This document shows positions 6,475 to 61,018 of a stretch of DNA of 64,000 bases, one piece after another. Under the pieces are notes generated by a model. That model did no database searches. It saw nothing but the letters and a program-made list of their open reading frames with translations, and had not been told where the DNA came from. Numbering within the stretch: the first letter of the stretch is position 1; the number at the start of each line of letters is the position of its first letter. The stretch is from Chaetoceros tenuissimus (lineage: Eukaryota > Bacillariophyta > Thalassiosirophyceae > Chaetocerotales > Chaetocerotaceae), in NCBI GenBank assembly GCA_021927905.1, contig BLLK01000047.1:1178001-1242000 (forward strand). The letters run 5' to 3'. A program made the position numbers and the translations under genes.

Positions 6475-7800
6475 CTTTAGAGGAGATAGAGAGAGGAAAA
6501 GAATTTTATGATCTTTTTAAAATGACCCGAGGGCCCTTTCCAAGACTGAAGTTCAAGAGTTCATGATTCTCTCAGAGGCTTCTCCCTTCTTGAACCCTGA
6601 TCAGAAGAGGATCTTTCTATTAATGACCTGAACACTTCAACCATTTCTTTTTCCCAAGAGATTACCTTTTTCTCCTCAGAGAATCAGAGTTTTTTTAAAG
6701 ACCCGAGCACTTCAACCATTTATTTTTCCCAAGTTAGAACCCTTCCAGGGAAGGAGAACAAATGGAATTCTCTTAAAAAGAGATAGAAAAGGTCTCCCTG
6801 ACGTCATCTTTGGACTCCAATGCTAGCTAGTCATTGGATTCTCATGAATATGCCATCTGATCCAACTGCTTTGTCCATCCAACTTTTCCGAAGTTCTTAT
6901 TCTCGTATATTGAAAGAGATGCTGACATGCACTGTAGAAATGGTTTTGACAGTGAAGGATCCCATCAACAATCAGACTGTATTACTTGTCCACAGTGGTG
7001 GAAGGCATAAACCTGGCGAAAAGATTGGAGGGATGTCACGTAATGGTTTGTCCTAAATTTCATAGAGACGCAGTTTGGCCATCAAAGATGAATCCATCGA
7101 AACAGCTTTGGGAATATCGACAATACATTGAAAAAAGACGTTTATAACAGAGCGCTTTACAATTGACCTGGAAAACCAAGATTTACAAAATCTCATGTCA
7201 TTGGATCAAGTGAAAGAAAGATATTAACAGCACGACTCTGGAATTAGATTTCAACCTCAAGGTGTTGGCGCCGACATCCCATTCAAGCAGAAGCGATCAT
7301 ATGACATTCCATTGTGATATTGTTGTAACATAGCTCTGTACCATAGCTCTGTATTTCCCCTTCTTCATCTATGTCTGGTCGCGATATTTTCGTTCGCAGA
7401 TTCTCTTAGTAGAAATACATTCCACTATAGTTACTGTTTACGGCTTTTGTAAGCAATTTCTGAAGAAAAGCACTACAGCATCGTTACAACAATCACATCA
7501 CACACCATTGGTCGATACAATCCAAGTCTTTCTACTTCTGCTTGAGTATTGTATTTGTACATCACTTTGACATTCATGACAACTATTCATACAGTTCATA
7601 CAGAGTCCACGCTCCAACAATTTCTCCTAGCAGGTAGACGCAGTCGGATTGATAATCCTGACCAAGGTGTAATACCAAACAACTTGCCTCCTGACTTCTT
7701 ACCAAAAGGGACAGACTAGACAAAATGATACAGGGTGGAACTCGACTCTTCTTGGCTTCTTCCAGAAAGACATCATTCTTTATCAACATTTTTATATCCT
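6475..7800. repeat. Dispersed module M1, copy a
   Basis: This block is nearly identical in order and sequence to 26560-27870 and to 53330-54100 plus 54755-55270. Shared landmarks are the pyrimidine-rich run with 'gacccgagcacttcaacca', a short ORF (6820-7056) with PSDPTALSIQLFRSSY, and the phrase 'gttggcgccgacatcccattcaagcag'. At the end comes 'ctcgactcttcttggcttcttccag'. In copy c a second frame gives a Cys/Trp-rich peptide (ADMYCRNGF, then DCITCPQWWKA). This suggests a decayed coding exon inside the module, but I cannot assign a family. Confidence 0.75.
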
Positions 7801-8110
7801 GAACTTAAGTCTAGACTACCAAACAAGGAGCGGGGCTCTAGATTTATTCTCGAGGAGTCTTTCAAAGCACTAGACGCGAGATCGTCTGGTTTGAATCCCA
7901 ACAGTGAAATTCCAAATGAAAGGATATTTATAGGTACTCATAATCGATTAGTATTTATATATATATACGAAAGAATCATAAAGTAGTTTCTTTCACATTC
8001 ACATTTTATATTTCATTAAAACTAATCCCATCATAAATAGACAATGTTTAGTCAATTGGGCTTTTAGAAAACTTCATAAATCCACTGTCACTGCAAGTTT
8101 CAAAAGGTTG
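7801..8110. other. Non-coding stretch with a recurring 'ctcgagga' motif
   Basis: The stretch 7848-7905 (ttctcgaggag, cactagacgcgagatcgtctgg) recurs, shortened or altered, at 23452-23470, 46905-46960 and 61370-61385. The rest is AT-rich and empty. Confidence 0.4.
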
Positions 8111-20350: not shown

Positions 20351-21547
20351 TTACTTTATTTCAAAGACCTTTTTCCAATCGATTTGTTTGCATATTTTTA
20401 TTGCATTCGACTCATTTGTGAAAGTCAAGGGGTGCTTCCGACTTTGACAAAACTTATGGAAACATGGAACATTCGATCCATCCGGTAGCTTTACATTTGC
20501 AGAGCGCTGAAAGGGTATCTTACTTTGTCCAAGTTTGGTGACAGTTATGTTTCTTTCGTCCACTATCCATTTCAGTAACATTTCACTGTTGCATCCACGC
20601 TTTCCAACTTTTGTCAAATCATCTGGCAGTAGTTTCATGCAAGCCTTGACATCTCTCTTCGATAGTTCTGAATAATAATTTCCAAATACGTCTGCAGTGT
20701 CACGTCGCGAAACTAGGATATGGTCATTTATTTCACTTGGTTGTAGAGGAGGATCCCTTGCATCACATGCAGGGATGAAAATGTCTCCACCTTTAGCTAT
20801 AAGATTGCGTATGTCAAACTCTTTCAACCAGAGAGAGTCGTCACGAAGGAACATGACATAATCGTATTTAAAACCTTCTTCGTTTTCCCAATTGGTGGCA
20901 GTCTTCCACAAACTCTGTATAGCGAGATGCAACCTCAAAAGATTCCTATTTGCATTTGCAGTCCTTTGCGATATAGCAGCGTTTCTATTGTCAATGATAG
21001 GAAATCTTGAGTCTGGATCTTCGTCTGGGTTCTCTTCTAGGGCTCTTTCTCTTCTAGCGATAAGCATTGGCTCAGAATCGATATCAACAGATTTCTGCAA
21101 ATTCACGGCACCTACAGACGAGGACAAACTGGCAATTTTGGTTCGTATATATTCCTCTATGTCAACAAAATCTTCAACAGAAGAAGAAGGTAGTGTGGGA
21201 TCTGGCTGAAGGCGGTCTGTGTATCCTGAGTCTGACCTGTAAGCTTTCATTCGAGCGGTGCTTAGTGACACATAATAGTCAACGGATGCTCTTTTTTTCA
21301 TAGGTTTTATCAAATTTTTCAGAGCAGAATCAAAAATGAACCTATTCAAAGTACCCGCTACAATCACAGCAACTCTCGGCTTTGTTGACGTTGTGGTGGT
21401 CGTTGGTGTAGTCTCGTTGTCCTTGATCATTTCCTCATCAATATGCGTGTTGGAACTTGCTACACATCGAGCAAAGCTCCTATAGTACCAATGGCAGCTT
21501 CTCTTTGCAATGTGTAACATAGGTCTTTGATTTTCATTAATATATAT
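20351..21547 (-). pseudogene. Family A, C-terminal half only, fused to unrelated upstream sequence
   Basis: About 395 residues match the last part of the 848-aa gene at 23610-26156 with few changes, from the IYINENQRPMLHIAK region to the end. The leader, membrane anchor and first domain are gone. At 21547 the homology switches abruptly to the segment that also occurs at 59498, inside a short 'ttacaggtcg' overlap, and a chance ATG at 21610 provides an open frame. This is a recombination chimera. Whether it is expressed is unknown; a soluble product without a signal would not reach the Golgi. Confidence 0.75.
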
Positions 21548-21689
21548 TACAGGTCGTGATGGTGTGATTCCAGTGAAAATCATCATTGATCTAAGTGCTG
21601 TTCCTACCAAAAACGAGTGGAGAATGACTGGTGATCCGCACCGTCATCTATGGCTGTTCAAGTAGATTCCTCCAGACTTCATCTCCTGC

Positions 21690-23609: not shown

Positions 23610-26156
23610 TTACTTTATTTCAAAGACCTTTTTCCAATCGATTTGTTTGCATATTTTTATTGCATTCGACTCATTTGTGAAAGTCAAGGGGTGCTTCCGA
23701 CTTTGACAAAACTTATGGAAACATGGAACATTCGATCCATCCGGTAGCTTTACATTTGCAGAGCGCTGAAAGGGTAGCTTACTTTGTCCAAGTTTGGTGA
23801 CAGTTCTGTTTCTTTCGTCCACTATCCATTTCAGTAACATTTCACTGTTGCACCCACGCTTTCCACCTTTTGTCAGATCATCTGGCAGTAGTTTCATGCA
23901 ACCCTTGACATCTTTCTTCGATAGTTCTGAATAATAATTTCCAAATACGTCTGCAGTGTCACGTCGCGAAACTAGGATATGGTCATTTATTTCACTTGGT
24001 TGTAGAGGAGGATCCCTTGCATCACATGCAGGGATGAAAATGTCTCCACCTTTAGCTATAAGGTTGCGTATGTCAAACTCTTTCAACCAGAGAGAGTCGT
24101 CACGAAGGAACATGACATAATCGTATTTAAAACCTTCTTCGTTTTCCCAATTGGTGGCAGTCTTCCACAAACTCTGTATAGCGAGATGCAACCTCAAAAG
24201 ATTCCTATTTGCATTTGCAGTCCTTTGCGATATAGCAGCGTTTCTATTGTCAATGATAGGAAATCTTGAGTCTGGATCTTCGTCTGGGTGTTCTTGTAGG
24301 GCTCTTTCTCTTCTAGCGATAAGCATTGGCTCAGAATCTATATCAATAGATTCCTGCAAATACACGGCACCTACAGACGAGGACAAACTGGCAATTTTGG
24401 TTCGTATATATTCCTCTATGTCAACAAAATCTTCGACAGAAGAAGAAGGTAGTGTGGGATCTGGCTGAAGGCGGTCTGTGTATCCTGAGTCTGACCTGTA
24501 AGCTTTCATTCGAGCGGTGCTTAGTGACACATAATAGTCAACGGATGCTCTTTTTTTCATAGGTTTTATCAAATTTTTCAGAGCAGAATCAAAAATGAAC
24601 CTATTCAAAGTACCCGCTACAATCACAGCAACTCTCGGCTTTGTTGATGTTGTGGTGGTCGTTGGTGGAGTCTCGTTGTCCTTGATCATTTCCTCATCAA
24701 TATGTGTGTTGGAACTTGCTACACATCGAGAAAAGCTCCTATAGTACCAATGGCAGCCTCTCTTTGCAATGTGTAACATAGGTCTTTGCTTTTCATTAAT
24801 ATATATGCGGTCGCGATATTCTTGACCAGTAACTTGCATATGAGGAGAAAGCCTCAACCCTGAGCTTGCTAGTACATGTGGAAATGAAATCTGATCTCGG
24901 TCGGAGAAACAGTGTATTTCATTGAGCCATGAACACCCAAAATCTCCATTAAATTTTCGGCAGGTTGAATCACGCATATCATAAACGATGAAGGCAGTAT
25001 CAACAAGTGGATGCCGATTGTAAAATACCTGACTCGACTGTAGTGCTTCATTACTATGCATTTCCTCGTAGTGTTGACACTGGAGTCGTAGAGTTTCGAG
25101 ATCATCAGATACAGTAGGTCTCTTTTCAGCAGAAGCAATAATAGCATCGCAATGAGCTTTAAAACTGACTGTCGAGGAGTCTCCAACAGAAGCTTTATCA
25201 GGAGGCAATCCCATGTAGCTCGAGCAAACACCATAGCGACCAACGGTACGATCGAAGTGTAGTAAGTAATCGCTTGGTAAACCTTTGGGCGAAGGCATAT
25301 TGCCATGATTCGATTGAAGAAGTTTAGCATCCTGCCAAATCACTCTATCAGCCCAAGGGAAGAGTAGACCAGGATTCAGCTTCAAGATTTTTGTATTCCG
25401 ACGGTTGTTCTTGTATGGCATTCTAGATGGGTCAATCACAATGAGCCGCTGGGAACCATCTGATGATAGAAGGTCTCCCGTATGATCGACATCAGTCACA
25501 AATTGGAAAAAGCAAGTTCCATGACGTCGAACCACTTTGATACTGTGGTCACCAAGAAAATTTGATGATCGCATCCATTGCTCATATTTGCTTCCAAGAG
25601 CAGCTCCGTAAACTACTAATTCTTTGCACTTGCTTGCAAACTTCTTTGCAATATCTTCTTGTAATTCTCTCAAATATTCTGCACCATTTCCGCAAAGCCC
25701 ACAAGTGCGCTTATAGGAAGCAGAACTGAAAATAGAGCGATGTGGATCCTTCATACATGTACCATCTAATATCCAGGGAACGTTCTTCTCTGGTGAATGG
25801 CATTGTATTCTCGGTTCCAATCCTACTGCTTGTCTCAAGAGTGTTTGTTTAGATACATTTCGAGACACCATGCTTTTCATATCATGCTCCTTACTCTCTG
25901 TATGATTGCTACTGGAAGAAGAGTAATCATACAAACGTTGCTGTTGAAGTAAGTCGAAATGAGTTTCTCTACTGGAAAATACATGCTGTCGCTGATTCTT
26001 CATCGACATATTGTCCTTGTCTGGAGCTTTGATAATGTTGGCACTGACAATGTTTAGGTCTAAGGCGATAGAAATGTTGAGAATAATTGTTAGGAACAAA
26101 AGGAGTAACATTCCCAATAGGATCAATTCAATTTTTTTCATCTTTCGCTTCTTCAT
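23610..26156 (-). CDS. Family A: two-domain type II transferase-like protein (848 aa), intact copy
   Basis: The ATG at 26156 opens a basic N-terminus and one anchor (residues about 9-32, IELILLGMLLLLFLTIILNI), giving a Golgi-type membrane protein. The first domain (about 150-470) resembles the DUF616/TOD1-MUCI70 glycosyltransferase-like family. The visible marks are VIDPSRMPYKNNRRNTKILK, FPWADRVIWQDAKLL, a Cys/His-rich middle, and RDQISFPHVLASSGL near its end. The second domain (about 510-848) begins PRVAVIVAGTLNRFIFDSAL and has YVMFLRDDSLWLKEF near residue 685, like the acidic metal-binding motif of GT-A enzymes. Fusion of two transferase-like domains would suit stepwise glycan assembly. The substrate is unknown. 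It lies tail-to-tail with the truncated kinase. Confidence 0.75.
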   Translation of the reverse strand: MKKRKMKKIELILLGMLLLLFLTIILNISIALDLNIVSANIIKAPDKDNMSMKNQRQHVFSSRETHFDLLQQQRLYDYSSSSSNHTESKEHDMKSMVSRNVSKQTLLRQAVGLEPRIQCHSPEKNVPWILDGTCMKDPHRSIFSSASYKRTCGLCGNGAEYLRELQEDIAKKFASKCKELVVYGAALGSKYEQWMRSSNFLGDHSIKVVRRHGTCFFQFVTDVDHTGDLLSSDGSQRLIVIDPSRMPYKNNRRNTKILKLNPGLLFPWADRVIWQDAKLLQSNHGNMPSPKGLPSDYLLHFDRTVGRYGVCSSYMGLPPDKASVGDSSTVSFKAHCDAIIASAEKRPTVSDDLETLRLQCQHYEEMHSNEALQSSQVFYNRHPLVDTAFIVYDMRDSTCRKFNGDFGCSWLNEIHCFSDRDQISFPHVLASSGLRLSPHMQVTGQEYRDRIYINEKQRPMLHIAKRGCHWYYRSFSRCVASSNTHIDEEMIKDNETPPTTTTTSTKPRVAVIVAGTLNRFIFDSALKNLIKPMKKRASVDYYVSLSTARMKAYRSDSGYTDRLQPDPTLPSSSVEDFVDIEEYIRTKIASLSSSVGAVYLQESIDIDSEPMLIARRERALQEHPDEDPDSRFPIIDNRNAAISQRTANANRNLLRLHLAIQSLWKTATNWENEEGFKYDYVMFLRDDSLWLKEFDIRNLIAKGGDIFIPACDARDPPLQPSEINDHILVSRRDTADVFGNYYSELSKKDVKGCMKLLPDDLTKGGKRGCNSEMLLKWIVDERNRTVTKLGQSKLPFQRSANVKLPDGSNVPCFHKFCQSRKHPLTFTNESNAIKICKQIDWKKVFEIK

Positions 26157-26400
26157 CTTGCTTTCGTATCTTCATTTTGATTTGGAATGAGAGGAGGCAT
26201 TGTTGTGCGTCATAGAGAAGAAGAAATAAAATCCTTTTCGAGGGAGAAGTATGATTTGGCGATTACTCGTACGTATTTTTTACTATTAGAAAATGCCAAG
26301 ATCTTGGAACATACGAGCAAATATTTACGTGATTTGTTGGGATGGAGCAGAAGACACTAGCTTGGGTAGGAGGCGTTTTCTTTCTCATAAGGGGGGTATC
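26157..26400 (-). promoter_or_regulatory. Candidate promoter region shared by family A copies
   Basis: This upstream flank is conserved next to other family A starts or leader fragments (9091-9260, 34880-35070 in opposite orientation, 58403-58560). The shared words are 'tacgtacgagtaat' and 'ccaagatcttg' on the coding strand. Conservation outside the CDS may mean a promoter or simply co-duplication. I see no firm TATA or initiator. Confidence 0.4.
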
Positions 26401-26446: not shown

Positions 26447-28030
26447 TGAATTTTGAATGGGCTGGGGGAATTGTCACTTTTTGGAAAATGGAGAAATATC
26501 TCGGTTTCACCCGACTGCCTTAGAAGAGGGAGAACTTTTCATGATGACCCGAACAGGCCCTTTAGAAGAGAGAGAGGGAAAGAATTTAGAGATCTTTTTA
26601 AAATGACCCGAGGGCCCTTTCCAAGACTGAAGTTCAAGAGTTCATGATTCTCTTAGAGGCTTCTCCCTTCTTGAACCGCAGAAGAGGATCTTTCTATTAA
26701 TGACCTGAACACTTCAACCATTTCTTTTTCCCAAGAGATTACCTTTTTCTCCTCAGAGAATCAGAGTTTTTTTAAAGACCCGAGCACTTCAACCATTTAT
26801 TTTTCCCAAGTTAGAACCCTTCCAGGGAAGGAGAACGAATGCAATTCTCTGAAAAAGAGATAGAAAAGGTCTCCCTGACGTCATCTTTGGACTCCAATAC
26901 TAGCTCGTCATTGCATTCTTATGAATATGCCATCTGATCCAACTGTTTGTCCATCCAACTTTTCCGAAGTTCTTACCTATATATTGAAAGAGATGCTGAC
27001 ATGCACTGTAGAAATGGTTTTGACAGTGAAGGATCCCATCAACAATCAGACTGTACTACTTGTCCACAGTAGTGGAAGCCACAAACCTGGCGGAAAGATT
27101 GTAGGAATGTCACGTAATGGTTTGTCCTACATTTCATAGAGACGCAGTTTGGCCATCACAGATGAATCCATCAAAACAGCTTTGGGAATATCTACAATAC
27201 ATTGAAAAAAGACGTCTATAACAGTGCGCTTTACAATTGACCTGGAAAACCAAGATTTACAAAATCTCATGTCATTGGATCAAGTGAAAGAAAGATATTA
27301 ACAGCACGACTCTTGAATTAGATTTCAACCTCAAGGTGTTGGCGCCGACATCCCATTCAAGCAGAAGCGATCATATGACATTCCATTGTGATATTGTTGT
27401 AACATAGCTCTGTACCATAGCTCTATATTTCCCCTTCTTCATTCTATGTCTGGTCGCGATATTTTTTTTTCGACAGATTCTCTTAGCAGAAATGCATTCC
27501 AATATAGTTGCTGTTTACGGCTTTTGTAAACAATTTCTGAAGAAAAGTACTACAGCATCGTTACAACAATCACATTACATAGCACTAGTCGATACAATCC
27601 AAGTCTTTCTATATCTGCTTGAGTATTGTATTTGTACATCACTTTGACATTCATGACAACTATTCATACAGTTCATACAAGAGCCCACACTCCAACAATT
27701 TCTCCTAGCAGGTAGGCGCAGTTGGATTGATAATCCTGAACAAGGTGTAATACCAATCCATTCGCTTCCTGACTTCTTACCAACAGGGACAGACTAGGCA
27801 AAATGATAGAAGGTGGAACTCGACTCTTCTTGGCTTCTTCCAGAAAGACATCATTCTTTATCACCATAGATTATAGGTAGGAAGTAAAAGACTTTTGCAC
27901 AAAACTACTACTAGAGAAGAATTCAAGGGACTAGCAGGCCTGGAATTTTCTATCAAAATAGAACTGGAGAGAGGATTACAATCTCTTCCCGGTTCCATCT
28001 ATTCACACCACTTTCAAATGAATCCAAACA
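26447..28030. repeat. Dispersed module M1, copy b, with kinase-tail sequence
   Basis: Bases 26447-26640 (gggctgggggaattgtcactttttgg, cccgactgcctta, gatgacccgaacagg) recur at 53034-53400. Bases 26640-27860 match 6560-7790. Bases 27860-28030 match the end of the truncated kinase and its 3' flank (23060-23230). No intact gene is present. Confidence 0.75.
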
Positions 28031-28486
28031 AGATGTGGCAACCGATCTTTTCTCTTATTAGGAGTCACTTGTAGTAGTCTTCTTGTTGCCTTTGTAACCG
28101 GTCATCTCTAGTAATAAAATTCATCATTTCTTGTTTTACCATCTATGTAGCTACCTCATTGTTTACATTACATTCTTGCTTACATTATTTGCGTCTATTT
28201 TCATTTTTTGTTTGCTTGTTGTGGTGTCCTCCTTCCTCCTTCTCAATCCAGTAGGCAAGTCCTCAACTCCATTCCTGTCTTCTTCCTTTGCATCATGTCT
28301 TCGTGTACCTACCTAATTGGTTCTATCTTGGAAATTCGCGATCAGTACTCATATGATCGGCTTGGTTATATTTACAGCTGATACCAGCATTTCCTCTACG
28401 ATGTATCCCATTTCAACAATCCTTACATATCTGATAAAAGGTTCCTTCGTTGTCATCAGCTAAGCAAAAGCGACACTGTTATTTTT
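28031..28486. other. 3' flank of the GT61 gene, no gene seen
   Basis: This is T-rich non-coding sequence between module M1b and the stop codon of the GT61 gene. Only short chance frames are present. Confidence 0.4.
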
Positions 28487-31400
28487 TCAATTTTTTGTAG
28501 TGGTAGTGATACTCTCTTCTCTGTGTCTTTTCCTCCAGTTTTTAACAAGCAACTTGACCCCTTCGACGATTTTGGGCACAGAAAGGCAAAGATTTCTACG
28601 TCTCGCAATACCTCGGCGCCCAAGATTTGCGGTCCAATAAGCTGTCTCTTCCGCAAGATTCCCATTCGTCTCGTAGATATATGCATGTTCCAGCCCAATT
28701 GGAGCAGTTAGACTTCCAAAGTAATCCTGAATCACGTATCCTAACGGGAAGATCTCAAGTATTGCACCATTTTCTGGCATGAATATGATTCCCGTGAGCT
28801 GCTCTCAACACAAAGATGTAAAGATGTAAGAAAGCAGTGTGGATACAATTATGTGAGAATAGAGGAATGTAACGTACCTGAGCCCCGTGGGGGGATATCA
28901 CAATATCATGCTCGGAAAAGAATTTTACCTGATCAACAAATGACGAATTTTCAAATCCTACAACTGCCACAGAATCTGTCATGTTGAGCTCCTCTTTAAT
29001 TGACTTTGCAATTTCATCAACGTTAAGCAAACTTCTTGTATTCTTCCTGTTCAGAATTGCAATTTTAGGCATCTCTTTATCAATAAGCTGAGAAGCTGTG
29101 CTACTTTCACCAACGGCACCACGATCGTTACTAGGAGCAAAAAGATCCAGTGCTACCATGAACTGTCTGCGAAACTCTTTGGCATGCACAGGAGAAGCCA
29201 CGAAGAAACCAAATGAATTTCCTACACTCACAGAAGATGAATTATTCCCCTGTCCAAAGTAAGGTCTCATCATGCTATATGTTTCTATTTGGATGCCCAG
29301 CTTCAAAAGAACATCATTTATACCCGTTTGAAATGAGCTCTTGCCATGATACTTTGCATCAGGAACAATTATTATATTGGTCTCCTTTGCTTGCATTTGG
29401 AAGAATGACCAGCACCTGAGAATAAATTGCATATAATGCGGAAAATGCTCATACATCTTGTTTTCTTCAATCCGACAGAGAGCTGTGTTGTTTCTTGGAT
29501 TCTTGGCTGGAGTATTTACCATTTTTGTATTATTGTTTTGTGCCGAGGAAATGTTGACGATCAATACATCACCCGTAATTGTCTCATTGTTATTGCATAC
29601 TGGCGCAGTGATCCTCTCGTTTGCCTTCGTCTTCGTCGTTGTACCATTGCTTTCATTATGGCTAACAGCTCGAGAAGGAGGATGGTATGACAATTTCTTG
29701 ACATTGTTGGTATTGTCATCCGAGGAGCGCAATGCATTCTCTTCTCTGTGTCTTTTCCTCCAGTTTTTAACAAGCAACTTGACCCCTTCGACGATTTTGG
29801 GCACAGAAAGGCAAAGATTTCTACGTCTCGCAATACCTCGGCGCCCAAGATTTGCGGTCCAATAAGCTGTCTCTTCCGCAAGATTCCCATTCGTCTCGTA
29901 GATATATGCATGTTCCAGCCCAATTGGAGCAGTTAGACTTCCAAAGTAATCCTGAATCACGTATCCTAACGGGAAGATCTCAAGTATTGCACCATTTTCT
30001 GGCATGAATATGATTCCCGTGAGCTGCTCTCAACACAAAGATGTAAAGATGTAAGAAAGCAGTGTGGATACAATTATGTGAGAATAGAGGAATGTAACGT
30101 ACCTGAGCCCCGTGGGGGGATATCACAATATCATGCTCGGAAAAGAATTTTACCTGATCAACAAATGACGAATTTTCAAATCCTACAACTGCCACAGAAT
30201 CTGTCATGTTGAGCTCCTCTTTAATTGACTTTGCAATTTCATCAACGTTAAGCAAACTTCTTGTATTCTTCCTGTTCAGAATTGCAATTTTAGGCATCTC
30301 TTTATCAATAAGCTGAGAAGCTGTGCTACTTTCACCAACGGCACCACGATCGTTACTAGGAGCAAAAAGATCCAGTGCTACCATGAACTGTCTGCGAAAC
30401 TCTTTGGCATGCACAGGAGAAGCCACGAAGAAACCAAATGAATTTCCTACACTCACAGAAGATGAATTATTCCCCTGTCCAAAGTAAGGTCTCATCATGC
30501 TATATGTTTCTATTTGGATGCCCAGCTTCAAAAGAACATCATTTATACCCGTTTGAAATGAGCTCTTGCCATGATACTTTGCATCAGGAACAATTATTAT
30601 ATTGGTCTCCTTTGCTTGCATTTGGAAGAATGACCAGCACCTGAGAATAAATTGCATATAATGCGGAAAATGCTCATACATCTTGTTTTCTTCAATCCGA
30701 CAGAGAGCTGTGTTGTTTCTTGGATTCTTGGCTGGAGTATTTACCATTTTTGTATTATTGTTTTGTGCCGAGGAAATGTTGACGATCAATACATCACCCG
30801 TAATTGTCTCATTGTTATTGCATACTGGCGCAGTGATCCTCTCGTTTGCCTTCGTCTTCGTCGTTGTACCATTGCTTTCATTATGGCTAACAGCTCGAGA
30901 AGGAGGATGGTATGACAATTTCTTGACATTGTTGGTATTGTCATCCGAGGAGCGCAATGCATTCTCTTCTCTGTGTCTTTTCCTCCAGTTTTTAACAAGC
31001 AACTTGACCCCTTCGACGATTTTGGGCACAGAAAGGCAAAGATTTCTACGTCTCGCAATACCTCGGCGCCCAAGATTTGCGGTCCAATAAGCTGTCTCTT
31101 CCGCAAGATTCCCATTCGTCTCGTAGATATATGCATGTTCCAGCCCAATTGGAGCAGTTAGACTTCCAAAGTAATCCTGAATCACGTATCCTAACGGGAA
31201 GATCTCAAGTATTGCACCATTTTCTGGCATGAATATGATTCCTGTGAGCTGCTCTCAACACAAAGATGTAAAGATGTAAGAAAGCAGTGTGGATACAATT
31301 ATGTGAGAATAGAGGAATGTAACGTACCTGAGCCCCGTGGGGGGATATCACAATATCATGCTCGGAAAAGAATTTTACCTGATCAACAAATGACGAATTT

Positions 31401-32180
31401 TCAAATCCTACAACTGCCACAGAATCTGTCATGTTGAGCTCCTCTTTAATTGACTTTGCAATTTCATCAACGTTAAGCAAACTTCTTGTATTCTTCCTGT
31501 TCAGAATTGCAATTTTAGGCATCTCTTTATCAATAAGCTGAGAAGCTATGCTACTTTCACCAACGACACCACGATCGTTACTAGGAGCAAAAAGATCCAG
31601 TGCTACCATGAACTGTCTGCGAAACTCTTTGGCATGCACAGGAGAAGCCACGAAGAAACCAAATGAATTTCCTACACTCACAGAAGATGAATTATTCCCC
31701 TGTCCAAAGTAAGGTCTCATCATGCTATATGTTTCTATTTGGATGCCCAGCTTCAAAAGAACATCATTTATACCCGTTTGAAATGAGCTCTTGCCATGAT
31801 ACTTTGCATCAGGAACAATTATTATATTGGTCTCCTTTGCTTGCATTTGGAAGAATGACCAGCACCTGAGAATAAATTGCATATAATGCGGAAAATGCTC
31901 ATATATCTTGTTTTCTTCAATCCGACAGAGAGCTGTGTTGTTTCTTGGATTCTTGGCTGGAGTATTTACCATTTTTGTATTATTGTTTTGTGCCGAGGAA
32001 ATGTTGACGATCAATACATCACCCGTAATTGTCTCATTGTTATTGCATACTGGCGCAGTGATCCTCTCGTTTGCCTTCGTCTTCGTCGTTGTACCATTGC
32101 TTTCATTATGGCTAACAGCTCGAGAAGGAGGATGGTATGACAATTTCTTGACATTGTTGGTATTGTCATCCGAGGAGCGC
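28487..32180 (-). repeat. 1225-bp tandem triplication within the GT61 gene
   Basis: The period is exactly 1225 bases (for example intron donors at 28877, 30102 and 31327). Each unit holds most of exon 1, the intron and exon 2. At the unit joints 'gaggagcgcaat' of exon 1 is fused to 'ctcttctctgtg' of the exon 2 end through 'gcatt', giving the in-frame peptide RKRHREENALRSSDDN. Confidence 0.93.
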
Positions 32181-32371
32181 AATACATCTTTGACGTTTGA
32201 AAAATTTGTAGGCATTGACAAGGAAGTGAGTAATAGTAGCGCCAAGATTGCATACATCTTCCAAGAAGAATGTAGAGAGGCTGTAGAGTGATTACGAAAA
32301 TTTAACCATCCTCGATCGTCCCTTCTACTTTGTTTGCGGTGCCTATTGTTTTTGTTATTGCGATTAGTCAT
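28487..32371 (-). CDS. GT61-family glycosyltransferase with three tandem catalytic units (about 1215 aa, 4 exons)
   Basis: The ATG at 32371 sits in a perfect 'gccaccATG'. Exons are 32371-31328, 31248-30103, 30023-28878 and 28798-28487; the three introns are the same 79-base sequence, all phase 0. Exon 1 has a signal anchor (about residues 38-53, MYAILALLLLTSLSM) and then a GT61-like domain: EHFPHYMQFILRCWSFF, ILNRKNTRSLLNVDEI, and the GT61 signature DIVISPHGAQ. Splicing joins it to LTGIIFMPENGAILEIFP. Exon 2 then runs, without a stop, straight into a second copy of the domain, and exon 3 into a third. Single-domain GT61 enzymes add xylose, arabinose or GlcNAc in the secretory pathway. Copies 2 and 3 look identical and copy 1 differs slightly. 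An assembly artefact is possible. Confidence 0.82.
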
Positions 32372-33137: not shown

Positions 33138-34229
33138 CTATTCGTCATCCTTCGAAATGTTGGCAAGTAGACTTTGGCTCTCTTCATCTTCTGAGCTGAC
33201 TTCGCTATCATATTCCTTCTTTGATGTCAAAGAATTGGACAACTGTGGTGGAATTGACTGTGATTGTGGAGTTGCATCGAACGAGTAATTGAAAATTGAA
33301 GTAATAACAATGCAGCCAGAAAGAACCATCTTTGTGTCCAAAGGTCCATTCAAAAATATATGGTCAAGAACACTAGAAAGAATAATTGCACCAGTAGTTG
33401 CCAGTGTTTTCAATACTGCGTCACCATACTTGATGGAAAGAGCTACGAGTAGACCACCTGCAGCACCAAGAATACCCAAAGCAAGAGTCACCATACTCCA
33501 ACCTCTACCAAGGCCAGCTTCTCCACCTCCATCAGCAACCATAAAAGCAAGATAAACTGGAAAACTTCCCAGTGCTAGTTGGAAGTTTCGTTCCCATATG
33601 TTGAGTTGCTGACTCGTATCTGTCTTGATCACTTTTTCAAAATATATTGATGCGAATCCACTCAGCGCAACTTCAGTCAATACAGCTGCTGTCCCAAGCA
33701 ACACATTACCATCTTTATTTGAGGCCATTGATTCACTTGTATTCCAAATAGGTTCTGAGAATAGCAGGACCCCAATGATGAGAGTAAAGAGTGCTCTCTT
33801 CTTTGTGAAAGAATATCGTTTGTTCAACATGAGAGTAGAGAAACTTGCCGTAGTCAAAATTTTCAATTGTGCACAAATGGTAAAAATACCAGCTGAAATA
33901 TTTCTCAAAGCGACATATGAAAGTATGTTCATGAGTCCATAAATCAAAGATAGTGCATACATTTTCTGCGCAGTGAAGGCAAGTTTAGTGATGTGTTCCG
34001 TGAAAGAGCTAGCATCATTGTGTTTTTGTGTAGAGATAACATGTGCACTGAAAATCATTTTGAACACTTCTCCAAACAATAAGACTTCATGTTTTGAGTA
34101 TTTTTCCTTTAATACACCCTGAGAATATCGTCGAAGAAGTGTGAAACAGGAATTTTGAAGGCATAATATACACAAAACTCCTAATTTTATAATTCGCACG
34201 GTATATGTATTTGTTGTTTCAGTGCTCAT
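33138..34229 (-). CDS. Golgi nucleotide-sugar transporter, SLC35A-like (363 aa)
   Basis: The product is polytopic with about ten hydrophobic segments from residue 13 to about 315. It has the pattern of the nucleotide-sugar transporter family (UDP-galactose, UDP-GlcNAc or CMP-sialic acid carriers). Family-typical pieces are a central AQLKILTTASFSTLMLNKRY and, later, SGFASIYFEKVIKT followed by WERNFQLALGSFPVYL. Near the end, TTGAIILSSVLDHIFLNGPL matches the conserved last helices. The C-terminal 45 residues are a Ser/Glu-rich cytosolic tail. It would exchange nucleotide sugar for nucleoside monophosphate across the Golgi membrane. The sugar cannot be told from sequence, but the UDP-xylose synthase next door and the GT61 gene on the other side make a UDP-sugar attractive. 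No introns are seen. Confidence 0.88.
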   Translation of the reverse strand: MSTETTNTYTVRIIKLGVLCILCLQNSCFTLLRRYSQGVLKEKYSKHEVLLFGEVFKMIFSAHVISTQKHNDASSFTEHITKLAFTAQKMYALSLIYGLMNILSYVALRNISAGIFTICAQLKILTTASFSTLMLNKRYSFTKKRALFTLIIGVLLFSEPIWNTSESMASNKDGNVLLGTAAVLTEVALSGFASIYFEKVIKTDTSQQLNIWERNFQLALGSFPVYLAFMVADGGGEAGLGRGWSMVTLALGILGAAGGLLVALSIKYGDAVLKTLATTGAIILSSVLDHIFLNGPLDTKMVLSGCIVITSIFNYSFDATPQSQSIPPQLSNSLTSKKEYDSEVSSEDEESQSLLANISKDDE

Positions 34230-34470
34230 GGTTTTTTAAAATCAAGTTATTTTGAATCGGATTCGTTCTTGGCTGGTAGCACTTATTTGCATTAAGATTT
34301 ACAACTATTTGGAGTATGAAAGAAATGTAAGGATGTGAATCTGTTGTCTTTGTTTTACCTAACGATTCTAACAACGTTGAAGTCGAAGTTGTGTGACTTC
34401 AAGGACTCTACCGAAATTTTCTGGAATTCCCAAGTTTTTGTAATAAGGGTTCCGGACTTTTTCCCCTGTC
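34230..34470. other. 5' flank of the transporter, nothing recognised
   Basis: This short non-coding stretch probably includes the transporter promoter. No motif is clear. Confidence 0.35.
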
Positions 34471-38079: not shown

Positions 38080-39900
38080 AATCAAGATTAACATTCTCAG
38101 ATTTAGCCAAAACTTACTCTAAAATCATCAATTCACCTCTCATGAAAAGCTTCTTTACAAGGACATCATTCTCGATAGTAACATTCATAGCTTCGGCTAA
38201 AACTTACTCTAAAATCATCAATTCACCTCTCATGAAAAGCTTCGGCTACAGTCATTACACTGACATCATTCTCGATAGTAACATTCATAGCTCCGGCTAA
38301 AACTTACTCTAAAATCATCACTTCACCTCTCATGAAAAGCTTCGGCTACAGTCTTTACACTGACATCATTCTCGATAGTAACATTCATAGCTTCGGCTAC
38401 AGTTTGTTCAGAAAATCATCACTTCACCTCTCATGAAAAGCTTCGGCTACAGTCTTTACACTGACATCATTCTCGATAGTAACATTCATAGCTTCGGCTA
38501 CAGTTTGTTCAGAAAATATCACTTCACCTCTCATGAAAAGCTTCGGCTACAGTCTTTACAAGGACATCATTCTCGATAGTAACATTCATAGCTTCGGCTA
38601 AAACTTACTCTAAAATCATCAATTCACCTCTCATGAAAAGCTTCGGCTACAGTCTTTACACTGACATCATTCTCGATAGCAACATTCATAGCTCCGGCTA
38701 AAACTTACTCTAAAATCATCAATTCACCTCTCATGAAAAGCTTCGGCTTCGGTCTTACACTGACATCATTCTCGATAGTAACATTCATAGCTCCGGCTAA
38801 AACTTACTCTAAAATCATCACTTCACCTCTCATGAAAAGCTTCGGCTACAGTCTTTACACTGACATCATTCTCGATAGCAACATTCATAGCTTCGGCTAA
38901 AACTTACTCTAAAATCATCAATTCACCTCTCATGAAAAGCTTCGGCTACAGTCTTTACAAGGACATCATTCTCGATAGTAACATTCATAGCTTCGGCTAA
39001 AACTTACTTTAAAATCATCACTTCACCTCTCATTCAAAGCTTCGGCTACAGTCTTTACAAGGACATCATTCTCGATAGTAACATTCATAGCTTCGGCTAA
39101 AACTTACTCTAAAATCATCAATTCACCTCTCATGAAATGCTTCGGCTACAGTCTTTACACTGACATCATTCTCGATAGTAACATTCATAGCTTCGGCTAC
39201 AGTTTGTTCAGAAAATCATCACTTCACCTCTCATGAAAAGCTTCGGCTACAGTCTTTACAAGGACATCATTCTCGATAGTAACATTCATAGCTTCGGCTA
39301 CAGTTTGTTCAGAAAATATCACTTCACCTCTCATGAAAAGCTTCGGCTACAGTCTTTACAAGGACATCACTCTTGATAGTAACATTCATAGCTTCGGCTA
39401 CAGTTCGTTCAGAAAATATCACTTCACCTCTCATGAAAAGCTTCGGCTAAAGTCCTCACAATGAGTTCTTTCTTGATAGTAACATTCATATCTTCGGCTA
39501 AAACTTACTTTAAAATTATCACTTTGTCATTGAAAGCTTCGGCTTCGGTCTTACACTGACATCATTCTCGATAGCAACATTCATAGCTTCGGCTACAGTT
39601 TGTTCAGAAAACATCACCTCCCTCATCCAAAGCTTTGGCTTTGGTCTTACACTGAGTTCACTCTTGATAGCAACATCCATAGCTTCGCCTACAGCTTGTT
39701 CAGAAAACATCACCTCCCTCATCCAAAGCTTCGGCTTCGGTCTTACACTGACCTCATTCTCGATAGCAACATTCATAGCTTCGGCTACAATTTGTTCAGA
39801 AAATATCACTTCACTCTCATTCAAAGCTTCGGCTACAGTCTTTACACAGACCTATTCTCGACATCAACTTCCATAGCTTCGGCTAGAATTAAACTCTGGA
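38080..39900. repeat. 100-bp satellite array with internal 'agcttcggcta' half-repeats
   Basis: About 18 units of 100 bases contain 'gacatcattctcgatagtaacattcat', then 'agcttcggctaaaacttactct', then 'tcacctctcatgaaaagcttcggctac'. Each unit has two 'agcttcggct' words, so it probably grew from a roughly 50-base ancestor. Units near 38261 and 38361 start exactly 100 bases apart. Confidence 0.93.
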
Positions 39901-42942: not shown

Positions 42943-43364
42943 GGGTTTTAGCAAAGCTTGTCCATTTCGTTGATTGATTTTGGTCACAGCATTGCCTCCT
43001 TGGCAATGAGTCACGACCTGTGAGACTACATAGCATTAATATCCTAGACAAACTCTACAATAGCCAAAGACATTGGCAATGGATACAATGGCAATAGAGA
43101 CATTGGCAATGGAGAAGTTGGCAATTGAGTTTGGGGATAGCAATGCTAGGTAGTTCTAGCTACCTATTGCAAGATATAGAATAGATAGCTAGAGTTAGAT
43201 GAATAGTTTGGAACTATTCAGATGGCGTCATTGGAAATGACGATTTGCTAGAGAGGGGATCCAATTCCCTCTCAAGAGGGGGCGTCGGCTACGCCCAAAC
43301 ATTAGGAAACTAACATAGAGTAGAAAGCGAGCAATAAGTAGATGCGTTTAATTATAACATAATT
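42943..43364 (+). repeat. Split direct repeat Y, internal copy (422 bp)
   Basis: The edges are 'gggttttagcaaagc' and 'ttataacataatt'. It is identical by eye to 43631-44052. Inside it 'cattggcaatgg' recurs three or four times. Confidence 0.92.
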
Positions 43365-43630: not shown

Positions 43631-44052
43631 GGGTTTTAGCAAAGCTTGTCCATTTCGTTGATTGATTTTGGTCACAGCATTGCCTCCTTGGCAATGAGTC
43701 ACGACCTGTGAGACTACATAGCATTAATATCCTAGACAAACTCTACAATAGCCAAAGACATTGGCAATGGATACAATGGCAATAGAGACATTGGCAATGG
43801 AGAAGTTGGCAATTGAGTTTGGGGATAGCAATGCTAGGTAGTTCTAGCTACCTATTGCAAGATATAGAATAGATAGCTAGAGTTAGATGAATAGTTTGGA
43901 ACTATTCAGATGGCGTCATTGGAAATGACGATTTGCTAGAGAGGGGATCCAATTCCCTCTCAAGAGGGGGCGTCGGCTACGCCCAAACATTAGGAAACTA
44001 ACATAGAGTAGAAAGCGAGCAATAAGTAGATGCGTTTAATTATAACATAATT
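43631..44052 (+). repeat. Split direct repeat Y, 3' terminal copy (422 bp)
   Basis: This is the terminal partner of 42943-43364. Just outside it lies 'ggttgaagtgttcgggtcttt', a dispersed motif that the insertion appears to have entered. Confidence 0.92.
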
Positions 44053-44177: not shown

Positions 44178-45362
44178 ATGGGAAAAGGAAGTAACAGAGG
44201 TAACAAACAAACCCAACGCAAAAATCTCACTAGAACCTTCCTTTTCTTGTTTTTTCTTTTGACTAGATTCTATCTTCAACATCTTCTGAGATTCCAGAGT
44301 GAGCCAGAGATTTAAGAGCAATCGAAAAAGGAAAGATTTCTTCTTGTCAAAGATCCTATGAGAGGGGGGTTGAACAATCAATTGATGGCGTTTACTGCAT
44401 ATGGTAAAATTGCTGCAGAAACAAATAGAACCCTCGTATTGCCAAAATTCACAGGAGGATTTCCCAAAGAAAAGATTTCTACACTAATTGAATTTGAAGA
44501 TGTCTTTCAGCTGGACTCTGAACAGAACAACCATGTCACGTTGCCATCCAAACGATTCCCTTCTACTCTTATCCGCCATAGTGATACTTCTATCCCCCCT
44601 AATATCCGTGGTTTCTATCTTGATAAAAAAAAATTATCCAGTTTCATAGCATCAAGAAGCAATGATACTGTTGTGGCGGTCAGTGTACCTGATCAACCAA
44701 TGAATGAAAGGCTATTATCCAAGATTTATGCCTCATTTAAACCAACCACATTCCTAATGAATGCAATTATCAATGTCATGGCAAAGTATTTAAGTCCCAT
44801 GGAACTAGAACAAAATAGATGGGAATCTGCCATGGTAATTCATCTACGCATTGAAACAGACTGGTTAGCTTATTCGCTGAGAAAAAAATGTCCTGGACAA
44901 TATTACATATCTCTTTCTAAAATCCAAGAACGTCTTGAACGGTTCACTCCCAAAATCAAAGATCAACCCATAAAGACAATCATTCTCTCATTCGCTTCTG
45001 AGGCATTGCCACAAGGTGCCAAGAATTTAAGGACTGGATGGCCGCATGGATACAATATTATTACAACAAATGACATATTGAATGAACTCAACAAAAACAC
45101 GAGTAAGAAACCTATTAATTACTTGATGCAAAGTCTAGCACTTGGGCATATTGCATACAGATCTAATATATTCATCGGAAATTGGTACTCCTCTTTTTCA
45201 CGGCAACTCATTTTATCTCGAGAAGAGTCAGAACAAGGCAAGTCCTTTATATACAACAATGATGAAATAGAAGATATGACTGAACATGGTCACAAGAAAA
45301 GTTATGAACCTGCACTAAACAAAGCTTTCTGTGACATTGAAGGTGTTGCAGACACATATTAG
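44178..45362 (+). pseudogene. Protein O-fucosyltransferase-like gene with one in-frame stop
   Basis: An ATG at 44178 starts MGKGSNRGNKQTQRKNLTRT, then a signal anchor (FLFLFFLLTRFYL). The frame hits TAA at 44313-44315. The same frame then continues, open to 45362, with ERFLLVKDPMRGGLNNQLMA, the usual start of O-fucosyltransferase catalytic domains (GGLNNQ). Further marks are VIHLRIETDWLAYS, like the HLRxExD box of that family, and IFIGNWYSSFSRQLIL near the end. The catalytic part is complete, so only the membrane leader is separated from it. An ATG at 44358 could start a leaderless protein. The stop may be a recent nonsense mutation, lie in an unrecognised intron, or be a sequence error. Confidence 0.72.
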
Positions 45363-53400: not shown

Positions 53401-55388
53401 AGTTCAAAAGTTCATGAAGATCTTTCTATTAATGACCTGAACACTTCAACCATTTCTTTTTCCCAAGAGATAACCTTTTTCTCCTCAGAGCATCAGAGTT
53501 TTTCTAAAGACCCGAGCACTTCAACCATTTATTTTTCCCAAGATAGAACCCTTCCAGGGAAGGAGAACGAATGGAATTCTCTGAAAAAGAGATAGAAAAG
53601 GTCTCCCTGACGTCATCTTTGGACTCCAATGCTAGCTTGTCATTGGATTCTTATGAATATGCCATCTGGTCCAACTGTTTTGTCCATCCAACTTTTCCGA
53701 AGTTCTTATTATGTTGAAAGAGATGCTGACATGTACTGTAGAAATGGTTTTGACAGTGAAGGATCCCATCAACAATCAGACTGTATTACTTGTCCACAGT
53801 GGTGGAAGGCACAAACCTGGCGGAAAGATTGTAGGAATGTCACGTAATGGTTTGTCCTACATTTCATAGAGACGCAGTTTGGCCATCACAGATGAATCCA
53901 TCGAAATAGCTTTGGGAATATCTATAATACATTGAAAAAAGACGTCTTTAACAGAGCGCTTTACAATTAACCTGGAAAACCAAGATTTACAAAATCTCAT
54001 GTCATTGGATCAAGTGAAAGAAAGATATTAACAGCACGACTCTGGAATTAGATTTCAACCTCAAGGTGTTGGCGCCGACATCCCATTCAAGCAGAAGCGA
54101 CCGAGTAAATGGTACTGATAAGTTCAAATAACTGGGTGTTGTCACTTGCTACGTAGATGGATCAATAATTTTCATCCGAGTGCTTTGAAAAGAAAGTCTC
54201 TCACTTCATTAGATACCAGACACAGTGGATTTACGCAGCCCAGCAAGATTCATTCGTCATAAACGATATTATAAAATCCATGCTATTAGACGATCTGAAA
54301 TTTTCTGTTGACTCGGATCCTCTGCTAAATCAATAATTATGAATTGCGATATATTGCACCGATACCGTTCATGATGGTGCTGTCAAAGCCAATTGTGCTG
54401 ACAGTTTTGGGCTCTGTCCAATCTAAAAAAGATACTGTGAGAGTTGTTAAATTGCTCCAACAAGTTTATATATGTTCTTCATTCTTTCATAGCTGTGTGA
54501 GGTTGAGGAACCGTATCCTTTCATGGATGCTTGAGTTCTCCCCGTAGCTTACATATTTTCAATACTATTTCCTTGGTTGTCAGGCTTCTTTGTCAATAAG
54601 CAAGTACTGATTCATTTATTTCTGTATGTGCTTTGACTGGTGAAAATCCAGTAGCCAAACATTACTATTAATAATAATATATGTTTTACTCTTTTCTATT
54701 TTGGCAACATTAGTTCGTTATCATGAAATGTACAATCATGTTACATTCTATTGTGATCTTGTTGTAATATAGCTCTGTGTTTATTTACTTCCCCCTTCTT
54801 CATCTATGTCTGGTCGCGATATTTTCGTTAGACAGATTCTATTAACATTGCGATATTTTCGTCCGTGGATTCTCTTAGTAGAAATGCATTCCAATATAGT
54901 TGTTCACGGCTTTTGCAACCACTTTCTGAAGAAAGTAGTACTTCAGCATCTTTAAAACAATCTCATTACATAGCATTGGTTGAAACAATCCAAGTCATTC
55001 TCTATCTGCTTGAGTATTGTATTTGTGCATTACTTTGACATTCATGACAACTATTCATACAGTTCATACAAGAGCCCACACTCCAACAATTTCTCCTAGC
55101 AGGTAGGCGCAGTTGGATTGATAATCCTGAACAAGGTGTAATACCAATCCATTCGCCTCCTGACTAGACTTCTTACCAAAAGGGACAGACTAGACAAAAT
55201 GATACAGGGTGGAACTCGACTCTTCTTGGCTTCTTCCAGAGAGACATCATTCTTTATCAACATAGATTGTAGGGAGGAAGTAAAAGACTTTTGCACAAAA
55301 CTACCACTAGAGAAGAATTCAAGGAACTGGGAACCTGGCATATTCTATAAAATAGAACTGGACACATGATGTACACTTTCAAATACAT
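53400..55388. repeat. Dispersed module M1, copy c, split by another repeat
   Basis: Bases 53400-54100 match 6590-7290, and 54755-55350 match 7300-7790 plus the kinase tail. The part between them (54106-54754) has a different origin. It contains 'ttgcaccgataccgttcatgatggtgctg', which matches 21735-21770 and 59685-59720, so a piece of the other segment entered or recombined into M1 here. Confidence 0.7.
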
Positions 55389-58300
55389 TTATTTTACCTC
55401 AAAAACCTTTTTCCAATCGATATGTTTGCATATTTTTATTGCATTCGACTCATTTGTGAAAGTCAAGGGGTGCTTTCGACTTTGACAAAACTTATGGAAA
55501 CATGGAACATTCGATCCATCCGGTAGCTTTACATTTGCAGAGCGCTGAAAGGGTAGCTTACTTTGTCCAAGTTTGGTGACAGTTATGTTTCTTTCGTCCA
55601 CTATCCATTTCAGTAACATTTCACTGTTGCACCCACGCTTTCCACCTTTTGTCAGATCATCTGGCAGTAGTTTCATGCAACCCTTGACATCTTTCTTCGA
55701 TAGTTCTGAATAATAATTTCCAAATACGTCTGCAGTGTCACGTCGCGAAACTAGGATATGGTCATTTATTTCACTTGGTTGTAGAGGAGGATCCCTTGCA
55801 TCACATGCAGGGATGAAAATGTCTCCACCTTTAGCTATAAGGTTGCGTATGTCAAACTCTTTCAACCAGAGAGAGTCGTCACGAAGGAGCATGACATAAT
55901 CGTATTTAAAACCTTCTTCCTTTTCCCAATTGGTGGCAGTCTTCCACAAACTCTGTATAGCGAGATGCAACCTCAAAAGATTCCTATTTGCATTTGCAGT
56001 CCTTTGCGATATAGCAGCGTTTCTATTGTCAATGATAGGAAATCTTGAGTCTGGATCTTCGTCTGGGTGTTCTTCTAGGGCTCTTTCTCTTCTAGCGATA
56101 AGCATTGGCTCAGAATCTATATCAATAGATTCCTGCAAATACACGGCACCTACAGACGAGGCCAGACTGGCAATTTTGGTTCGTATATATTCCTCTATGT
56201 CAACAAAATCTTTGACAGAAGAAGAAGGTAGTGTGGGATCTGGCTGAAGGCGGTCTGTGTATCCTGAGTCTGACCTGTAAGCTTTCATTCGAGCGGTGCT
56301 TAGTGACACATAATAGTCAACGGATGCTCTTTTTTTCATAGGTTTTATCAAATTTTTCAGAGCAGAATCAAAAATGAACCTATTCAAAGTACCCGCTACA
56401 ATCACAGCAACTCTCGGCTTTGTTGACGTTGTGGTGGTCGTTGGTGGAGTCTCGTTGTCCTTGATCATTTCCTCATCAATATGTGTGTTGGAACTTGCTA
56501 CACATCGAGAAAAGCTCCTATAGTACCAATGGCAGCCTCTCTTTGCAATGTGTAACATAGGTCTTTGCTTTTCATTAATATATATGCGGTCGCGATATTC
56601 TTGACCAGAAACTTGCATATGAGGAGAAAGCCTCAACCCTGAGCTTGCTAGTACATGTGGAAATGAAATCTGATCTCGGTCAGAGAAACAGTGTATTTCA
56701 CTGAGCCATGAACACCCAAAATCTCCATTAAATTTGCGGCAGGTTGAATTACGCATATCATAAACGATGAAGGCAGTATCAACAAGTGGATGCTGATTGT
56801 AAAATAACTGACTCGACTGTAGTGCTTCATTACTATGCATTTCCTCGTAGTGTTGACACTGGAGTCGTAGAGTTTCGAGATCATCAGATACAGTAGGTCT
56901 CTTCTCAGCAGCAGCAATAATAGCATCGCAATGCGCTTTAAAACTGACTGTCGAGGAGTCTCCAACAGAAGCTTTATCAGGAGGCAATCCCATGTAGCTC
57001 GAGCAAACACCATAGCGACCAACGGGAAGTGTAGTAAGTAATCGCTTGGTAAACCACGGGGCGAAGGCATATTACCATGATTCGATTGAAGAAGTTTAGC
57101 ATCCTGCCAAATCACTCTATCAGCCCAAGGGAAGAGTAGACCAGGATTCAGCTTCAAGATTTTTGTATTCCGACGGTTGTTCTTGTATGGCATTCTAGAT
57201 GGGTCAATCACAACGAGCCGCTGAGAACCATCTGCTGATAGAAGGTCTCCCGTATGATCAACATCAGTCACAAATTGGAAAAAGCAAGTTCCATAACGTC
57301 GAACCACTTTGATACTATGGTCACCAAGAAAATTTGATGATCGCATCCATTGCTCATATTTGCTTCCAAGAGCAGCTCCATAGACTACTAATTCTTTGCA
57401 CTTCTTTGCAAACTTCTTTGCAATATCTTCTTGCAATTCTCTCAAATATTCTGCATTGTCTCCGCAAAGCCCACAAGTGCGCTTATAGGAAGCAGAACTG
57501 AAAATAGAGCGATGTGGATCCTTCATACATAAGGCAGTGCGGATAGAAATCCGCACGATGCGACGGACAGACGACAAAAATTTTGCCGAGATATTTGACA
57601 AAATAGGAAATCGGCAGGAATCATAAGATTCATCTATTAATGAATCATTTTACAACATAGAAGCTGAATAGAAAGCTAGTATCGTTCAACTAGACCATAG
57701 GTATAGATATTACTAATATTTAGGTAAAAATTTTGTCTTCAATGTCTCAATATAGTAGTATTAGTACCAATGATAAAATTCCAATGACGCCCGGTCATAC
57801 CATATGTTTCCAAAAATTGGTGATGATGCAAACTGAAATTTTTTATTTTTGAGCACCTCATTCGAAAGCTCTCGACGAGAGGGAGCCAAATCTGCCATAA
57901 AACAAAAATCGACCAAAATAGCTATCGTGCGGATTTCTATCCGCACTGCCTTACATGTGCCATCTAATATCCAGGGAACATTCTTCTCTGGTAAATGGCA
58001 TTGTATTCTCGGTTCCAATCCTACTGCTTGTCTCAAGAGCTTTGGTGTTGGTTTAGATACATTTCGAGACACTATGCTTTTCATATCATCCTCCTTACTC
58101 TCCGTATGATTGCTACTACTAGAAGAAGATGTATAGATCCGTTGCTGTTGAAGCAAGTCGAAATGAGCTTCTAAAAATACTTGCTGTAGCTGATTGTTAA
58201 TCGACATATTGTCCTTGTCTGGAGCTTTGATAATGTTTGCACTGACAATTAGGTCTAAGGCGATAGAAATGTTGAGAATGATTGTTATTAACAAAAGGAG

Positions 58301-60361: not shown

Positions 60362-61018
60362 ATGGGGGTTGGCTTTCATGACGATGTAGATCTTATTCCA
60401 GATAAGCGGACAGTCAGTTCGAGGATTGACTCTGAATCCAAAGATAGCTCTCGTAGAGCGAAGATGTTGCAGCAAAGATGTATGGATAGTGTGGCTAAAA
60501 TGAGAGAGACTTTCAAGAACAGCAGACCAATATTACAACATCGTATCAGTCAGCTCGAAATTGGTGAGACTTTGGGTCGTGGAGGTTTCGGAGAAGTGCA
60601 TTCACTTAGATCGATATCTTCTGAAGATGGTGAACACGAAACTTTTACGTCAATGGCATTGAAACAAATCAGAGGCAGCCTTTACGGTGCTCAAAGATTA
60701 CAAGCTCAAGCAGACTTGGCCAAAGAAGCAGAGTTTTTAAGAGCTCTCTCGACACATCCCAATATTATTACTCTTCATTCGACTGGAATTATTGGAAGTC
60801 CAGACTTCTTTCTTGTGATGGATAAACTTGAAAAGACTTTTGAGGATATGATCTATAAAGAATGGAAGCCTCTATATGAGCAGCGAGATGTCAATATTAG
60901 CGAGATGAAGCTATCGAAGCGTGAAATTAAGAAAGAGAACACGAGAAACCTCATGATTTCACAAATTAAACTCTTGATTGAAGTTTGCTCATTCTTTATC
61001 AACATAGATTGTAGGTAG
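60362..61018 (+). pseudogene. Truncated protein kinase, N-lobe only (218 aa), copy 2
   Basis: It is almost identical to the piece at 22434-23090 (for example ISEMKLSKRE here against ISEIKLSKRE there), with the same early end in the SFFINIDCR repeat-derived tail. The frame is open 22 codons upstream of the shared ATG, to 60296. Because both copies share the same break, the truncation came before the duplication. It has no catalytic loop. Confidence 0.8.

Follow-up and report, generated by a model that had tools for sequence, protein, structure and literature searches.

Three near-identical GT61 glycosyltransferase units in tandem within one predicted gene of the diatom Chaetoceros tenuissimus

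Background

Does a diatom possess a single gene for a glycosyltransferase with three catalytic domains, or has such a gene been created by the assembly of its genome? The question is raised by a locus of Chaetoceros tenuissimus (assembly GCA_021927905.1, contig BLLK01000047.1), where an earlier sequence-only reading proposed one gene encoding three GT61 units. All positions given below without a contig or stretch name refer to the window, that is, the whole stretch of 64,000 nucleotides analysed (contig positions 1,178,001 to 1,242,000, G+C content 40.1%). The interval proposed for the gene (28487-32371) turned out to be exactly the coding region.

Results

A repeat scan with base-by-base comparison delimits the segment 28513-32187 as 3.0 copies of a 1225-bp unit, arranged head-to-tail at spacings of 1225 and 1225 bp, in agreement with the repeat originally proposed. 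This three-copy periodicity is far beyond chance. On the minus strand, unit C (30963-32187) comes first in gene order, unit B (29738-30962) lies in the middle and unit A (28513-29737) is the last. The scripted period-1225 match spans 28513-30958 and halts at the last substitution, which is included in the array end at 32187. Units A and B, previously called identical by eye, exhibit no difference over 1225 positions, and either of them differs from unit C at five of the 1225, all transitions (31243, 31548, 31566, 31904 and 32184). At each of these sites unit C has A/T and units A and B have G/C; with n = 5, we draw nothing from this pattern. Four of the five differences fall in codons common to all units, corresponding to I/M, V/A and I/T replacements and one silent change. 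The 0 and 5 differences per 1225 bp support the recent growth of the array suggested earlier. At 0.4%, the divergence between units falls short of the published average heterozygosity (1.56%), implying either a young event or a homogenisation of the copies, whether by the cell or by the assembler.

The gene occupies 28487-32371 of the minus strand and its spliced translation is 1215 aa long, matching the earlier estimate of about 1215 residues. Exon 1 (31328-32371, 1044 nt) encodes the N-terminal tail, the anchor, the stem and the first part of GT61 domain 1. It is followed by a 79-bp GT-AG intron of phase 0 (intron 1, 31249-31327), at a site where relatives such as P0002, P0003 and P0004 read HGAQ-L unbroken. 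Exon 2 (30103-31248, 1146 nt) covers the end of domain 1, the joint, a linker and the start of domain 2; exon 3 (28878-30023, 1146 nt) likewise covers the end of domain 2, the joint, a linker and the start of domain 3. Introns 2 (30024-30102) and 3 (28799-28877) are also 79 bp long and identical to intron 1. Exon 4 (28487-28798, 312 nt) encodes the end of domain 3 and the native C-terminal tail, with the stop codon ending at 28487. The four exons are thus all multiples of three and the three introns all in phase 0, as had been read by eye. The frame is open through both joints, and units B and A are without an anchor-bearing start. The product exhibits a single hydrophobic stretch at residues about 37-55 (Kyte-Doolittle, windows of 15), consistent with the one membrane anchor expected for it; this stretch may be either an anchor or a signal peptide.

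The unit begins in the protein at residue 65, in the stem beyond the hydrophobic anchor, and ends at residue 446; 22 of 23 relatives align within residues 88-445. Its end corresponds approximately to residue 427 of the relative P0002, beyond a nearly invariant tryptophan (W420). The last predicted helix of P0002 spans residues 406-433, and the unit end falls toward the end of this helix, where the model confidence is dropping. At both joints, read on the plus strand, the native right end (…CAAT-R-CAT) runs straight into the native left start (TCTCTTC…), the sole departure from the native right end being G/A at 29734/32184. Because the outside bases mismatch (28512 C vs 29737 T; 32188 C vs 29738 T), the join is blunt, with no microhomology. 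Filler DNA, which had been suggested from the joint sequence (gcgcaat/gcatt/ctcttct), was considered and rejected, as a blunt join and one transition suffice to explain what is found there.

The predicted spliced product matches the Pfam family Glyco_transf_61 (PF04577) in three stretches, with 183.4 bits in all against a curated cut-off of 27, as anticipated from the claim of three catalytic domains in frame. The exon-wise GT61 matches of the three units in the genome search score 49.1, 49.1 and 49 bits; NCBIfam gave no match for any of three queries. In an alignment with 12 relatives (12 of the 24 proteins found, P0001 and 11 others being left out), each of the three units retains all 31 conserved positions. 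In a first check, three of 22 columns (349, 352 and 361) seemed to be lost. Since the unaligned sequences read the same there, this loss was attributed to a misalignment next to the tail of P0001, which reads through an intron.

The GT-B fold of POMGNT2 and EOGT is found in the predicted model of a relative, not of the unit itself, with POMGNT2 as the best match (alignment for structure, 16 of 24 proteins). Residues R292 and R296, with their equivalents in units 2 and 3, share columns with the UDP-binding arginine pairs of EOGT and POMGNT2, which were assigned as R372/R377 and R294/R298 by their spacing and a constant numbering offset, not by coordinates. The histidine invariant in 12 of 12 relatives is H162 in unit 1; three residues before it stands a histidine, not an asparagine, in a region that the alignment with EOGT and POMGNT2 did not cover. 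The motif reads HFPH at residues 159-162, 541-544 and 923-926 of units 1-3, and this preceding histidine is present in all three units and in seven of nine relatives read by eye (not in P0015 and P0022). Animal and plant GT61 enzymes are described, in the passages dealing with the N-R-R constellation, as having an asparagine at that place (PMC13123520). Judged from this simple reading, histidine in place of asparagine may be a further variant of the constellation.

An exon-by-exon profile search of the genome detected at least 11 GT61 places, namely the three units and eight others. All eight are single and lie on different contigs or at distances above 500 kb; the single-domain form is the rule in this genome. 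With the single-unit form as the query, the protein search found 22 relatives. The relative P0001 is 62% identical. The triple form as the query, in a search admitting proteins of about 670-2130 residues and scoring the best 7989 candidates by shared words, returned two relatives, each with one GT61 stretch. No part of unit 1 matched twice in any of 23 relatives, and the four relatives scanned by Pfam (of the 24 found) contained one GT61 stretch each and no second one. A query in the permuted frame (the exon end followed by the start of the next exon) retrieved five proteins with a best coverage of 76%, none of them shown to be permuted by the best local alignment considered. A search of viral contigs for relatives gave three pattern matches, of which none was confirmed. 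No tandem GT61 protein is named among the papers listed on GT61, on two-domain glycosyltransferases, on domain or exon duplication and on tandem duplication in C. tenuissimus, as covered by titles and abstract openings with few subscription journals. The view that GT61 enzymes normally have one domain is supported by the eight other places in the genome, the four relatives scanned by Pfam and the 23 compared with unit 1, and the proposed search for domain repeats among GT61 proteins, carried out over this range, found no protein with two such domains. With the eight other GT61 places found in the genome being single and no two-domain protein found, the triple form looks young.

As a background control, 20 stretches of 10 kb (200 kb) spaced along the same contig were subjected to a scripted repeat search. 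Two tandem arrays of near-identical units turned up in this sample, one with a 1523-bp unit (4.0 copies) and one with a 583-bp unit (two copies). The former (C34:2299270-2305364; L039 1-5364) carries an MFS-type transporter frame in each of its four units and also repeats the end of the frame of a neighbouring BTB gene, the BTB domain itself being outside; its joint shows a 3-bp microhomology, and the array does not extend one protein. In the latter (L043 1518-2736), the 583-bp unit can be read as a 498-nt exon with an 85-bp GT-AG intron, the frame being kept, in a gene with repeated domains; the one unit scanned had no Pfam match. Near-identical spaced duplications were observed in two other stretches (L029 and L035), and shorter or less similar ones in two more (L033 and L046). 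Either this genome or its assembly thus tends toward recent tandem copying at the kilobase scale, at times in frame within genes, and the GT61 array is one of several such cases.

Discussion

The locus probably reflects a real duplication that is recent and kept the frame, and its product would be a "beads on a string" transferase with one active site present three times. The ancestor would be a gene for a single-domain type II GT61 glycosyltransferase, of which 1225 bp were duplicated head-to-tail, presumably via blunt end joining. One breakpoint would lie in the stem, after the hydrophobic anchor, and the other beyond the last conserved domain position, close to the end of the C-terminal helix, so that the unit takes in all of the conserved catalytic region and its single 79-bp intron. 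The frame is kept because removing 79 from 1225 leaves 1146, which is divisible by three. A second step, either unequal exchange or copying between identical units, would then have led to three of them. The product would be one chain, probably lumenal, of three GT-B domains with the same UDP-binding arginines throughout, linked by stretches rich in glycosylation motifs. By analogy with the diatom carbonic anhydrase CDCA1, it is most likely a single Golgi protein, anchored and with three active sites of equal kind, and the likely effect, provided that each domain is active, would be to place about three active sites on each anchored molecule. The ancestral form of 451 residues, or one of 833, could also arise by splicing. 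Against this explanation, one in three duplications of this sort would keep the frame by chance. No selection in favour of the triple form is visible at this age, because three of the four inter-unit codon differences change the amino acid.

The identity of units A and B might also be the work of the assembler. The genome, with a heterozygosity of 1.56%, was assembled with MaSuRCA and HaploMerger2 (PMC8613185), and the near-identical copies in the sample of 20 x 10 kb, two sets in tandem and two spaced, could mean an assembler habit; one or two real units would then have been expanded by the hybrid assembly, or two alleles placed in tandem. We consider such an artefact rather unlikely, given that the joint is blunt between unlike sequences, with no shared overlap to cause a misjoin, that unit C has five differences of its own, and that the divergence between units is below the allele average. 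Misjoins by an assembler that works from overlaps require sequence in common, and at least one joint should therefore exist in the reads. How many units there are is less certain than that a joint exists at all: units A and B do not differ, and each, at 1225 bp, is longer than the 300-bp Illumina reads reported for the assembly of C. tenuissimus NIES-3715 (PMC8613185), so that the count rests on the Nanopore reads and on MaSuRCA/HaploMerger2. Three separate genes merely looking fused would have for them only the repeated units themselves, and are extremely improbable, as units B and A start without an anchor of their own, no stop is found at either joint and the frame is continuous.

If the array is real, it may still be functionally near-neutral, exon 1 being joined to exon 4 or one middle exon being skipped, so that mainly the 451-residue enzyme is made. 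The three introns are identical and the two middle exons, of 1146 nt each, are symmetric and in phase 0; skipping one or both leaves 833 or 451 residues in frame, and the change may thus have done no harm when it first arose. Exon skipping is generally regarded as uncommon in diatoms, which counts against this possibility, and we consider it unlikely. As for the working of the triple form, the sequence-only reading had envisaged a processive or dose-amplified transferase. A processive or polymerising enzyme, its three sites acting in turn on one growing chain, was argued from the presence of three sites on one chain. It appears very improbable, because the sites hardly differ (379 of 382 residues shared by units 1 and 2) and the GT61 enzymes in the sources consulted take their names from the transfer of GlcNAc, xylose or arabinose residues to an acceptor (PMC13123520, PMC12507850). 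The other half of the proposal, a dose effect of the tripled domain, is possible by analogy with the diatom carbonic anhydrase CDCA1. A more speculative and quite unlikely extension of the real, recent duplication that we favour is a length-variable enzyme "ladder", in which strains or splice forms would have one, two, three or more active sites, acting as a dose dial for a Golgi transferase, and more such genes would exist in the genome. As the unit consists of 382 codons and one phase-0 intron, gain or loss of units through unequal exchange, like skipping of middle exons, keeps the frame; the second tandem case of exon plus intron within the 200 kb sampled (L043) can be cited for this reading.

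Each unit resembles the GT61 family (POMGNT2, EOGT, plant core beta-1,2-xylosyltransferase and xylan-modifying enzymes) in its PF04577 match and its pair of UDP-site arginines, and the model of a relative is closest to POMGNT2. In contrast to the one-domain GT61 proteins examined, this gene has three near-identical domains. As in tandem-repeat catalytic proteins of the type of CDCA1 of Thalassiosira weissflogii, the predicted spliced frame is open through more than one complete catalytic domain. CDCA1 is likewise a diatom enzyme built of three repeats that each have an active site, and the full protein is reported to be about three times as active as a single repeat (PMC4413181). It belongs to an unrelated family, however, and its repeats are 80-82% identical in protein, whereas two of the three GT61 units are identical in DNA. 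Dinoflagellate luciferase also has three tandem catalytic domains in one chain, but is an unrelated enzyme, the triplication of which is thought to be ancient (PMC5029497). Human polyserase-1 is membrane-bound through a type II anchor and has three catalytic domains; these are different proteases that are cut apart, the first two being active, according to the account available (PMC1435904). The Dictyostelium protein PgtB is a multi-domain transferase with a GT61-like domain, its mixed domains being similar to GT1, GT2, GT4 and GT61; the part of the source dealing with it does not describe it as a GT61 repeat (PMC13123520). If the triple gene is real and expressed, the birth of a CDCA1-type multi-domain enzyme would have been caught early, with its repeats not yet diverged and with splicing able to fall back on the old single-domain product. 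It would then let one ask how cells tolerate and use a sudden multiplication of domains. If it is an effect of the assembly, the arrays warn against gene and domain counts in this assembly.

Genomic neighbourhood

Outside the array, a nucleotide-sugar transporter gene (Nuc_sug_transp, PF04142, E-value = 8.1e-58) lies at 33138-34235 on the minus strand, and is possibly a functional neighbour of the GT61 gene. Four dispersed copies of a TOD1/MUCI70 glycosyltransferase-like gene are located at 20354-21643, 23613-26171, 55392-57649 and 61528-63999 (minus strand). They are 93-99% alike in the 300-nt pieces compared, with a domain match in both of the two copies scanned; the third copy is split over two frames and the fourth reaches the window end. 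An O-fucosyltransferase-like frame (PF10250, E-value = 2.9e-13) is found at 44316-45359 on the plus strand, and a 422-bp identical direct duplication (42943-43364 and 43631-44052) lies just upstream of it. The transporter, the TOD1/MUCI70-like genes and the O-fucosyltransferase-like gene fit a secretory-pathway role, which their presence does not prove.

The window also contains a dispersed segment of about 1-2 kb in three to four copies (6602-7854, 26684-28034, 53416-55328 and 60909-61172), 61-96% alike in the pieces compared, one of which ends about 480 bp from the GT61 array. Repeats of 100 bp (about 17.5 copies), which follow a higher-order period of about 300 bp, occupy 38152-39885. Elsewhere in the assembly, for which the published account gives telomeric repeats in 3 scaffolds by other criteria (PMC8613185), TTAGGG x4 occurs in 10 contigs, in two of them (C13 and C28) near the very start.
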